From positions 1 through 64,000 of the forward strand of contig JAEUJY010000072.1 in the NCBI GenBank assembly GCA_016794525.1: a stretch of 64,000 nt of DNA, given 5' to 3'. A program made the translations under genes and the position numbers. This document shows positions 19,612-28,395 of this stretch, in pieces. This DNA is from Myxococcales bacterium. Lineage in GTDB: Bacteria; Myxococcota_A; Polyangia; Haliangiales; Haliangiaceae. The notes beneath the pieces were generated by a model, which worked only from the letters and a program-made list of their open reading frames with translations, was not told the DNA's origin and made no database searches. Numbering within the stretch: position 1 is the first letter of the stretch; every line of letters starts with the position of its first letter.

Positions 19612-19790
19612 CTACGGCAGCTTGGCCCGTCCGCGCCAGACGTGCTCGCGGCCGAGCGGGTGCGGATCCGCTCGTCGCCCATCGTCGGCGACGTCGGGCG
19701 TGCCGGCGAGGCCGCTCACGGCCAGGCGCTCCTGCTCGAAGATGCCTCCGAGCCGCTCGGCCGCGGCCAGGCGCGCTACGATGGAGGCCG
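19612..19790 (-). pseudogene. Fossil fragment of a paralogue of the 25679-26254 gene
   Basis: The minus-strand frame has no start codon but reads RLGGIFEQERLAVSGLAG followed by TPDVADDG. The intact gene at 25679-26254 reads AVASIFEQERQAVTSLAG followed by TPDASDDG. The nucleotide match covers about 19677-19760. The frame then diverges and ends at TAG 19612-19614. The fragment lies between a leftward gene and the TPR gene. The similarity is strong but short, about 26 codons. Confidence 0.6.
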
Positions 19791-25139: not shown

Positions 25140-25652
25140 CTACGCGGTCGACTTGAAGACGAGCTGGCTGGCTCCGAGCGCGATGCGGTCGCCATCGACC
25201 AGCTCGAAGCGCTCCACGCGCACTCCGTTGACGAAGACGTCGGCGGCCTCGATCGCGACCAGCGTGAAGTCGTACGCGCCGCGGGCGAGCCGGCAGTGGG
25301 CGAGCGCCAGGGTCGGATCCGCGATCACGATCTCCGCGGGCGGCGCCGAGCCGATCACCGCGCTCGCGCCGAGCTGGAACGTCGTGCCGACGGCGGGGCC
25401 GGCGACGGCGACCAGCCGCGCCACCACCGGGGTGTCGACCTGGTTCGATAGGAACATGCCCATCGTCTTGGTCGGCGCGTACGCGACGCAGTGGCCCTTG
25501 CGCGCGAGCCGCCAGACGCCCTCGGCCTCGTGGGTGAGGTGGACGTCCTGGTGGCACGCCTCGCAGTGCCGCACGCCCGGGCGCCGGGTCGGCTTCAGCG
25601 ACTCCCAGGTGCGCGAGCACGCGAACGCGGGTATGGGATCCGCGGGCGGCAT
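25140..25652 (-). CDS. Zinc-knuckle protein with a degenerate FHA domain
   Basis: ATG 25652 is preceded by a TACCAT hexamer. The N-terminal 60 residues carry ACSRTWESLKPTRRPG and HCEACHQDVHLT, a Cys/His arrangement that could bind zinc. Residues 80-170 have the outline of an FHA domain (VIGSAPPAEIVIADPTLALA, then YDFTLVAIEAADVFVNGVRV, then DGDRIALGASQLVF). The phosphothreonine-binding signature is altered: the IGR turn is IGS, and the SRxH segment reads ALAH. Binding of pThr is therefore doubtful. The protein may act in the kinase/FHA signalling common in myxobacteria. Confidence 0.75.
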   Translation of the reverse strand: MPPADPIPAFACSRTWESLKPTRRPGVRHCEACHQDVHLTHEAEGVWRLARKGHCVAYAPTKTMGMFLSNQVDTPVVARLVAVAGPAVGTTFQLGASAVIGSAPPAEIVIADPTLALAHCRLARGAYDFTLVAIEAADVFVNGVRVERFELVDGDRIALGASQLVFKSTA

Positions 25653-25661
25653 ACCGGTGCG

Positions 25662-25667
25662 ATGGTA
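25662..25667 (-). promoter_or_regulatory. -10-like hexamer TACCAT, 9 nt before ATG 25652
   Basis: It lies in the 26-nt gap after the upstream gene, so the FHA-like gene could be expressed separately from the coupled unit above it. Confidence 0.38.
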
Positions 25668-25678
25668 CGCCGGCGAGT

Positions 25679-26254
25679 CTAGGGATAGACCGCCGACAGC
25701 ATGTCGAGCCAATGCCGGGTGTATGCGCTGCTGAACTCCTCGGCGCGCTCGTGGCCCAGCAGCGCTGCGAGGCGGCTCTTCCGCTGCTCGATAAGGTTGG
25801 CGTGGACCCCATCGTCGGAGGCGTCGGGTGTGCCAGCGAGGCTGGTGACCGCCTGCCGCTCTTGCTCGAAGATCGAGGCGACCGCCCCGCGGGTCACGTC
25901 GTCGAGCCCGAGCTCGTCGCACGCCAGGCGTTGTGCCTCGATGCGCGCGGTGCGGCTCGCCTCGATCGCGTCGCGCATCTCGGCGAGCTCGCGGTCGCGC
26001 GTGCGGGTCGCGTTCGTGCTGTCCGTGCGCAGGCGCAGGCGCGGTGGGCGAAACGTCCGCGGCCGGCCCGGCGCGGGGTGGTCGGCTGTGTCGGGCCCGC
26101 CGTCCGCGGGGACCCCATCGGCGACGGTACGGTCTGCGACCCGCACCGCGTGCGCGTCGGCGCGCGAAGGGCGCCATGCACGGGTGTGGGCGACGAAGAC
26201 GCCGCCAAGCCCGACGAGCAGAACGCCGCCCGCGATGATCCATCGGGCCTTCAT
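25679..26254 (-). CDS. Membrane-anchored protein with a helical Spy-like region
   Basis: ATG 26254 overlaps the stop of the 23-codon micro-ORF (ATGA). One hydrophobic segment (WIIAGGVLLVGLGGVFVA) anchors the N-terminus. A Pro/Arg linker follows, then a helical region (EMRDAIEASRTARIEAQRLA, IFEQERQAVTSLAG, LIEQRKSRLAALLG). The pattern of long charged helices after an N-terminal anchor is reminiscent of CpxP/Spy-type periplasmic proteins, but the LTxxQ signature is absent. A fossil fragment of a paralogue lies at 19612-19790. Its regulation and partners are suggested by the coupling to the genes upstream. Confidence 0.7.
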   Translation of the reverse strand: MKARWIIAGGVLLVGLGGVFVAHTRAWRPSRADAHAVRVADRTVADGVPADGGPDTADHPAPGRPRTFRPPRLRLRTDSTNATRTRDRELAEMRDAIEASRTARIEAQRLACDELGLDDVTRGAVASIFEQERQAVTSLAGTPDASDDGVHANLIEQRKSRLAALLGHERAEEFSSAYTRHWLDMLSAVYP

Positions 26255-26322
26255 GGGATCACGGCGTCGGCCACGTCGCGCGCGGCCACCGTCGAGCAGT
26301 TGTAGTTGGGCCGTCGGGTCAT
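26251..26322 (-). CDS. 23-codon micro-ORF linking two genes by double ATGA overlaps
   Basis: ATG 26322 overlaps the TGA of the gene at 26319-27002, and its own TGA overlaps ATG 26254 of the next gene. The frame (MTRRPNYNCSTVAARDVADA plus three residues) fills the gap exactly, with no spare base. Neither junction has a Shine-Dalgarno sequence, so translation of the downstream gene is likely to depend on ribosomes that pass through the micro-ORF. The peptide has no known family. It is either a coupling device or a real small protein; proof needs data beyond sequence. Confidence 0.5.
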   Translation of the reverse strand: MTRRPNYNCSTVAARDVADAVIP

Positions 26323-27002
26323 GGCGCGTCGAGGTCGTCGAGTGGGCGGACCGCCCAGCCGACGAGGTCGGCCCAGGCGTGGACGCCGGCCGCGGCATCG
26401 CCGGCGGGGTCGCAGGCGAACTGTAGCCGGTCGCCGTGCCAGACCTCACCGCCGAGGGCGGTCCAGGCGATCTCGCCGGGGGGCGCCGCCGAGACCCAGA
26501 TGGCGTTGTGGTCGGCGCGAGCCAGGATCGGGAGCGCTAGCCGTGTGCGCGTGCGGTCGTGCACCCGGTGGTTGGCCTCGAGCGCGCCATCGACGATCCC
26601 GCCGATGAGGAGGCCGGCCATCCCGCCGAGGCCGGGGTGGCCGAACGCGCGGCCGAGCGCGCGGCCGGCATCGGCCAGGTCGCCGACTTGCGGATCGTGG
26701 CAGCGACCAGCGGGCACGAACCCGACGCCGCCCTCGGCGAAGACGACCACGCCGTGCATCGCGGGCAGCGCGACGTGGCCACCGGTGTTCGTGAGCCGCG
26801 TGACCGAGATGCGCCCCAGCACCGGACCCTGTTCGGCGACCGCGCTCGCTTCGAACGCGGCGAGCTCGCCTACCCGCGCCTCGAGTTCGGCGGCGACGGC
26901 GCGTTGCCCGTCGGGCGTGAGCCCTCCGAAGTAGTGCGCAGCCACGAGCGCATCGTCGTCTTCGCGCGCCCACCGCGCCCGGATCATGTCCACGCTGACC
27001 AT
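26319..27002 (-). CDS. Hypothetical protein, first gene of an ATGA-coupled unit
   Basis: ATG 27002 follows GGAGGAC. The 227-residue soluble product starts with a helical part (RARWAREDDDALVAAHYFGG, TPDGQRAVAAELEARVGELA) and continues with a Gly-rich stretch (FGHPGLGGMAGLLIGGIVDG). Trp-containing segments near the C-terminus include ARADHNAIWVSAAPPGEIAW. It lacks a signal peptide and known motifs. It heads a leftward unit with the micro-ORF and the Spy-like gene. Confidence 0.72.
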   Translation of the reverse strand: MVSVDMIRARWAREDDDALVAAHYFGGLTPDGQRAVAAELEARVGELAAFEASAVAEQGPVLGRISVTRLTNTGGHVALPAMHGVVVFAEGGVGFVPAGRCHDPQVGDLADAGRALGRAFGHPGLGGMAGLLIGGIVDGALEANHRVHDRTRTRLALPILARADHNAIWVSAAPPGEIAWTALGGEVWHGDRLQFACDPAGDAAAGVHAWADLVGWAVRPLDDLDAP

Positions 27003-27085
27003 GCCGTCCTCCGCTGTCCGTTGGCCGAGCTATCGGCCGGCACGCGGCGCGGTTGCGTACGATCTGCCTGCCGGTGTCGATCGGG

Positions 27086-27547
27086 TCAGCGGGGCCCAGG
27101 CGTCAGGCACGGCGTCAGCGCCGGCTCCGGCAGGACCTCGAGGTCGTAGTAGTGGGGATCGCGGCGGCGCAGCTCGGTGGTCACGCTGACGACGGTCGCG
27201 CAGTCGCCGGCCGCCGCGGCGTCGAGCGCGCGCAGCAGCATCGCCTCGAGGTCGCGCTGGTGCGTGACCTCGGGGCCCGGCGGGGGCTGGGTGGTCTCGT
27301 CGGCCAGCGGCCCGGGATCACGAAGCAGGCCGATCGCGCCAGTGACGGTCAGCGCGGTGCCCGCGAACACCGCGACCAGCGCGAGCTTCGCCTGCGGCGC
27401 CAGCCCCGGGCCATCGGACTCGGCGGTCGCGCCCAGCACGATCGAGCTGGTCAGGAAGGCCAGCCCGGTGCCCAGCGCGACCTTGTTCGAGCGCGGCGTG
27501 GCGCAGGCGCATGGCACGATCAGCGCGAGGGCGACGAGGCGGCGCAC
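27086..27547 (-). CDS. Small predicted lipoprotein with two hydrophobic segments
   Basis: GTG 27547, with a TAGCAT hexamer 7 nt upstream, starts VRRLVALALIVPCAC. That stretch may be a lipobox with an unusual Cys-Ala-Cys. Two further hydrophobic segments (VALGTGLAFLTSSIVLGATA, KLALVAVFAGTALTVTGAIG) form a hairpin. A hydrophilic C-terminus follows (QRDLEAMLLRALDAAAAGDC, TELRRRDPHYYDLEVLPEPA) with an 'RRRDP-x-YYD' motif that I have seen in uncharacterised myxobacterial envelope proteins. The function is unknown. Confidence 0.65.
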   Translation of the reverse strand: MRRLVALALIVPCACATPRSNKVALGTGLAFLTSSIVLGATAESDGPGLAPQAKLALVAVFAGTALTVTGAIGLLRDPGPLADETTQPPPGPEVTHQRDLEAMLLRALDAAAAGDCATVVSVTTELRRRDPHYYDLEVLPEPALTPCLTPGPR

Positions 27548-27554
27548 GATGGCG

Positions 27555-27560
27555 ATGCTA
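27555..27560 (-). promoter_or_regulatory. -10-like hexamer TAGCAT, 7 nt before GTG 27547
   Basis: TAGCAT-N7-GTG. It supports the GTG start, since no ATG is available in frame. Confidence 0.42.
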
Positions 27561-27600
27561 CCGCGCCGCGCGGGCACGCGGCGCGCGGCGAGCCCGCGCG

Positions 27601-28395
27601 CTACCGCGGAGGCAGCAGGCCGAGCAACGCCGGCGGCATCGGCTCGACGGCGGTGCAGTCGTACGGGAAGGCGTCGTCCAGCGCCGGCGCGCGGACCGAG
27701 CACCGATAGCGGAGCAGCTCGTCGTCGCGCGCCGTCGCGGTCGCGGGTCGGAGGATCGCGTCGACGTTGTAGCGCAGCAGCTCGCCGTCGACGTAGTCCC
27801 GGCGGAAGCGCGTCGACCACTGCGAGTTCGAGCCCCACCCCGTCGACAGGTCCTGGCACGGGCGGTCGCGTCGCACGTGCGCCCAGTACAGCGTCGAGGT
27901 GCAGGCGACCTGGTGGTCGATGACGTCGGCGCCGGCGCGGATGCGCCCACCGGCCCGCGCGAACAGCATCTGTCCCCACATCAAGCATGGCCACACCAGC
28001 TCGAGCAGCGTCGGCGCCGCGGCGGGATCCGGATCGGGCTCGACGTCGACGATCTCGACGAAGAACGGGTGGAACACCCGCGGCGCGACCGGGGTCATCC
28101 CCAGCCCGCGCCACAGGTCGACGTACGCGTCGACGGTCACGTCGATCGGCCGACCGTCCCCGTGGGCGGGGCGCTGGAAGCCCTGCCGGAGCCAGGCGTC
28201 GACCCGGTGGATCGCGTAGGCGTCGAACAACGTGGCTGGATCCGCCGGCGCCCAGGCGCGGAGCGGCGACAGCTCGGCGAGCGCCGACGCGAGCACGGCG
28301 TGGGCCGCGGGCGCCCGGGCCTTGTCGATCGGGTCACGCTCGCCGGCGAGCGAGTGGTACACGGCGCGAACGGTGTCCGGCGGCTCGTGACCCAT
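27601..28395 (-). CDS. Hypothetical soluble protein
   Basis: The 264-residue product from ATG 28395 has no signal peptide. Sequence highlights are YAIHRVDAWLRQGFQRPAHG, a Trp/His-rich middle (DLWRGLGMTPVAPRVFHPFF) and a region with two Cys (LVWPCLMWGQMLFARAGG, DHQVACTSTLYWAHVRRDR). It ends YDCTAVEPMPPALLGLLPPR. The family is not recognised. The aromatic content suggests a folded domain rather than a linker protein. It has its own -10-like element (TAGGCT). Confidence 0.7.
   Translation of the reverse strand: MGHEPPDTVRAVYHSLAGERDPIDKARAPAAHAVLASALAELSPLRAWAPADPATLFDAYAIHRVDAWLRQGFQRPAHGDGRPIDVTVDAYVDLWRGLGMTPVAPRVFHPFFVEIVDVEPDPDPAAAPTLLELVWPCLMWGQMLFARAGGRIRAGADVIDHQVACTSTLYWAHVRRDRPCQDLSTGWGSNSQWSTRFRRDYVDGELLRYNVDAILRPATATARDDELLRYRCSVRAPALDDAFPYDCTAVEPMPPALLGLLPPR

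Follow-up and report, generated by a model that had tools for sequence, protein, structure and literature searches.

A 23-codon micro-ORF lies between two genes of no known family, gene A and gene B, on the minus strand of the window (the whole 64,000-nucleotide stretch of DNA that was analysed), and is chained to both by ATGA overlaps. This arrangement had been correctly seen in an earlier note on this DNA but is ordinary, and one property of the micro-ORF is above chance, namely its codon signature. The reading that we tentatively prefer is that the micro-ORF is a translated transit frame, which may lead ribosomes leaving gene A on to gene B along an A-micro-ORF-B transcript, and that its peptide is probably without a function.

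Arrangement of the locus

Gene A (P0003, 26319-27002, minus strand) encodes 227 amino acids and is preceded by a strong Shine-Dalgarno sequence, GGAGGA, about 5 nt before its own ATG (read from the sequence at approximately 27006-27012, minus strand). Gene A ends with CCA-TGA, and the final A of CCA together with TGA forms the ATGA of junction 1 (26319-26322, minus strand), where the micro-ORF (MTRRPNYNCSTVAARDVADAVIP, 26251-26322, minus strand) starts at 26322. The micro-ORF likewise ends with CCA-TGA, and gene B (P0002, 25679-26254, minus strand, 191 amino acids) begins at 26254 inside the ATGA of junction 2 (26251-26254, minus strand). Each reading frame is -1 with respect to the preceding one, and both junctions are -4 overlaps in which stop and start share ATGA. 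The coordinates, frames and overlaps in the earlier note proved exact, as did its statement that neither junction has a Shine-Dalgarno sequence: no GGAG, GAGG or AGGA was found upstream of the micro-ORF start or the gene B start when both junctions were inspected. The distance from gene A to gene B without the micro-ORF is 64 nt, and the micro-ORF occupies 72 nt. Both flanking genes, with the same coordinates, were also returned by an independent codon-based gene caller trained on the same genome.

The start region of gene B is moderately structured, at the 28th percentile of 521 starts ranked by folding energy. A scan of 25600-27700 in both directions revealed neither promoter-like nor terminator-like sites, so co-transcription of gene A with gene B is putative. 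The two junctions share CCATGA followed by similar bases, but a tandem duplication was rejected: the local alignment score of their surroundings was only 12.5, a level also attained in 342 of 2000 pairs after shuffling and in 938 of 1987 pairs drawn at random from the window. Programmed frameshifting at either junction is not favoured, no classic slippery heptamer being apparent by eye.

Frequency of bridged gaps in the genome

Genes were called in 840 kb (74% GC) and then in 1.24 Mb of the same genome, the larger sample being 12.7% of the assembly, in contigs that were picked non-randomly and include the window. A same-strand gap of 20-250 nt was counted as bridged if a frame shared 4 or 1 nt with the stop of the upstream gene and likewise 4 or 1 nt with the start of the downstream gene. 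In the 1.24 Mb sample, 16 of 340 gaps were bridged (by 17 frames, one gap being counted twice), compared with 14.40 expected from shuffled gap interiors and 14.31 from transplanted real gap sequence; in the first 840 kb, the count was 8 of 233 with 8.06 expected. Gaps with ATG at both ends (ATG...ATGA) numbered five (six frames) in the 1.24 Mb sample, with 3.85 and 3.86 expected. The exact packing, which had been taken as a sign of a coupling cistron or an overlooked small protein, is therefore no evidence by itself, because chance predicts as many bridged gaps in this genome.

The codon scores of the remaining bridged frames are, for the most part, clearly non-coding. Among gaps of 60-130 nt, coding-like stretches occurred in two of 11 bridged gaps and two of 140 unbridged ones (p = 0.027), but no association between bridging and coding-like stretches is claimed, since p rises to 0.19 once the micro-ORF locus is removed. 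A second coding-like bridged gap was observed at locus L135 (G000:C113:70884-70976, minus strand), where a 31-codon frame (VILDGITPPGWHEVVYTYIDHLADLWHKGCA) with a GTG start and an ATGA end has a score of 4.1, the second most coding-like of the bridged frames; a search of 55 other genomes with its peptide gave no match below E 0.1.

Codon usage of the micro-ORF

The GC contents of codon positions 1, 2 and 3 are 61, 57 and 91% in the micro-ORF, 82, 53 and 89% in gene A, and 76, 56 and 88% in gene B. As in both genes, GC of the micro-ORF is highest at the third position, while its first and second positions are nearly equal. When the coding signal was followed in steps of 12 codons, it lay in the frame of gene A up to junction 1, in the frame of the micro-ORF between the junctions, and in the frame of gene B after junction 2.

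The codon score of the micro-ORF, 5.48, is the best of all bridged frames found. In 102 comparable gaps, 25 of 2666 open stretches of 22 codons attain this score, and eight of 101 comparable gaps hold a stretch that scores at least as high in some frame; outside the frame of the downstream gene, it was reached by eight of 2751 open stretches, located in three of 150 other gaps. Shuffling the interiors 20,000 times gave such a score in 0.13% of cases; segments taken in the wrong frame reached it in 0.05% of 5600 cases, and open intergenic segments, with no restriction on strand, frame or gap size, in 6.3% of 6812. As a coding segment the micro-ORF is weak, since 12.8% of the 3465 real coding segments have an equal or lower score. 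The number of bridged gaps in the 1.24 Mb sample expected to score at least as high is 0.02 by shuffling or 0.06 by transplanted gap sequence, values that serve as a guide rather than a clean p-value because the threshold is the micro-ORF's own score; the number observed is one, the micro-ORF locus itself. The micro-ORF thus looks moderately coding.

Shine-Dalgarno sequences in the genome

With start codons chosen by codon score only, GGAG, GAGG or AGGA was present at -17 to -5 of 239 of 997 starts, compared with 61 of 997 at a control position, leaving 758 starts with no such site. The missing Shine-Dalgarno sequences at the two junctions, which the earlier note had pointed out, are not unusual but the norm in this genome. 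Starts in -4 overlaps account for 105 of the 997, and 47 of these 105 have a Shine-Dalgarno-like site, about twice the frequency seen at starts after gaps of 20-250 nt in the 1.24 Mb sample (70 of 342). A pattern search of the whole assembly for the 16S rRNA 3′ tail (GGNTCACCTCCTT) found no occurrence, and ribosomal RNA genes may be missing from the assembly; the anti-Shine-Dalgarno sequence is therefore assumed, on the strength of the enrichment of GGAG-like sites.

Homologues and predicted structures

Gene A and gene B were each found only in their own genome out of 95, the 94 others without a match including six of the same genus. A wider search of 376 other genomes gave matches to gene A in 16 (E 3e-4 to 0.01) that are short, in many cases interrupted by internal stops, and were read as compositional noise, and matches to gene B in 20 (E 8e-5 to 0.01), also read as noise, many of which span only the disordered linker. 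No homologue of gene A was found among genome contigs, viral contigs, plasmids or phages, and none of gene B among genome contigs or viral contigs. For the micro-ORF peptide, the best non-self match among 56 genomes had an E value of 0.49, and those genomes offer no orthologous locus for comparison because neither gene A nor gene B has a credible homologue. The peptide has no Pfam match, no hydrophobic segment and no recognised motif.

By sequence, gene B matched no solved structure and gene A matched one, a designed protein, at E 0.047. The AlphaFold model of gene A, made with no alignment, was unusable (pLDDT 36.3), whereas that of gene B (pLDDT 73.8, likewise with no alignment) contains a confident helical bundle; the predicted protein consists of a hydrophobic N-terminal helix (residues 7-25), a disordered linker, and the C-terminal bundle (residues 79-189). 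Foldseek returned nothing for this model at E 0.001 or better, and VIA-align gave Z scores of up to 8.4, with Spy at 4.8 and CnrX at up to 4.9, neither of which stood out. No fold was assigned, as Z 8.4 is below the level that helical bundles reach through their common arrangement.

The neighbourhood of genes A and B, as judged by these searches, is rich in orphan genes. A 264-residue neighbour (27604-28395, minus strand) has no Pfam match and is absent from 29 other genomes of the family, and about 6 kb from gene B, 66 bases (19678-19743, minus strand) are 83% identical to part of its coding sequence with no matching intact gene around them, apparently a decayed partial copy of gene B. Of eight neighbours scanned against Pfam, the only one to pass the cut-off is directly downstream of gene B (25143-25652, minus strand), a predicted FHA-domain protein (FHA and Yop-YscD_cpl above cut-off) with a cysteine-containing N-terminal segment.

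A possible relay between gene A and gene B

If gene A, the micro-ORF and gene B share a transcript, ribosomes that terminate on gene A at 26319 would reinitiate at the micro-ORF AUG overlapping this stop, translate the 23 codons up to the stop at 26251, and reinitiate once more at the gene B AUG that overlaps it; translation of gene B would then depend on that of the micro-ORF. An uncoupled gap of 64 nt would thereby be turned into two -4 overlaps. According to PMC10666635, a distance of about 20 nt almost abolishes coupling in six tested gene pairs, overlaps or very short distances being needed, so a gap of 64 nt should not couple gene A to gene B; the same source reports that coupling needs no more than the final 15 nt of the upstream gene, so the 72 nt of the micro-ORF are long enough. 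Delivery of a ribosome to the next gene by short ORFs is described in a review (PMC12548453), and in mycobacteria the linkage of RTGA-coupled small ORFs to the next gene can persist while the peptide does not (PMC4633059). Counting against a relay, removal of the Shine-Dalgarno sequence cut reinitiation by 60-90% in three Escherichia coli pairs in the work described in PMC6728339, and the sequence was essential in one, so reinitiation without such a sequence is often weaker. Of the coupling cistron proposed in the earlier note, the argument from packing is lost, and what stands is modest and independent of it: coding-like codons in exactly this frame and the published work on -4 overlaps. A more specific proposal, that a 23-codon cistron was selected for coupling only, keeping two lineage-specific genes in a fixed ratio with no Shine-Dalgarno sequence at the restarts, is doubtful; the bridge at L135 could be another example.

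The micro-ORF could quite possibly be instead a short open stretch that arose by chance in a GC-rich gap, is not usefully translated and has no role, with gene B initiating alone without a Shine-Dalgarno sequence as most genes here appear to do. The chance-level frequency of bridged gaps, including those with ATG at both ends, the non-coding scores of most other bridged frames, and the 758 starts with no Shine-Dalgarno-like site all agree with this, and it comes close behind the relay because the geometry is at chance level and reinitiation without a Shine-Dalgarno sequence is often weak (PMC6728339). What it accommodates poorly is that the frame in question has the top codon score of all bridged frames, a score expected in a small fraction of one gap in the sample.

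The codon usage has two further explanations. The micro-ORF may be the N-terminal part of a gene B extended to about 215 amino acids that was split by a one-base change near 26254, whether real or an error of sequencing or assembly, in which case the coding-like codons are accounted for and junction 1 is a single ordinary ATGA overlap with gene A. One base would be enough, the frame of gene B being -1 to that of the micro-ORF, and the coding signal does shift to the frame of gene B right at junction 2. However, the ATG of gene B stands exactly at the expected beginning of an N-terminal anchor (MKARWIIAGGVLLVGLGG; residues 7-25 form a helix in the model), which would be a coincidence if the gene had been split; the homopolymer run at the junction is just three C; and no high frameshift rate is evident, the places in the genome that match the kinase domain PF00069 having no internal stops among the matches listed. 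A split gene B is therefore unlikely. Less probable still is that the micro-ORF encodes a functional 23-residue protein made in a fixed ratio with the products of genes A and B: its codon use is coding-like, but the peptide lacks a homologue among the 56 genomes, a Pfam match, a hydrophobic segment and a recognised motif, and genes A and B themselves have no credible homologue. The suggestion of an overlooked functional small protein thus gained no positive evidence.

Comparison with known systems and implications

Pairs of genes with -4 overlaps are known to undergo termination-reinitiation (PMC6728339, PMC10666635). Both junctions here are of the ATGA type, the commonest; the differences from the pairs described in these sources are that the middle partner has only 23 codons, that both junctions are without a Shine-Dalgarno sequence, and that coupling is here a prediction. 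In Mycobacterium, small ORFs of 5-50 codons, in which the TGA stop is part of an RTGA shared with an annotated gene's start codon, have been proposed to deliver ribosomes downstream (PMC4633059), and the micro-ORF agrees with these in its 23 codons and in the overlap at junction 2. The mycobacterial small ORFs, as described in that source, open a leaderless transcript at its 5′ end, which is unlikely for the micro-ORF because it begins within gene A's stop codon. They are also enriched over chance, whereas bridged gaps here are not, and for this reason the micro-ORF is not filed with the mycobacterial class but would only work like it. The two-codon minigene of the axe-txe operon (PMC8708949) is likewise a tiny ORF within an operon and acts in cis on how the following gene is translated, but it has only two codons, the authors favour protection of the mRNA, and in that case spacing and reading frame are important. 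The literature searched yielded no description of a small ORF joined by overlaps to the genes on both sides.

A lesson from the controls is that chance frames exactly bridge about one in 20 same-strand gaps in a genome of 74% GC. A hidden gene should therefore not be inferred from packing alone; the codon signature of the frame that bridges the gap serves as a useful second filter. If the relay is true, genes too distant for direct coupling can be coupled through a short frame that overlaps each of them, and the locus would be a simple place to test the distance rule that governs reinitiation.
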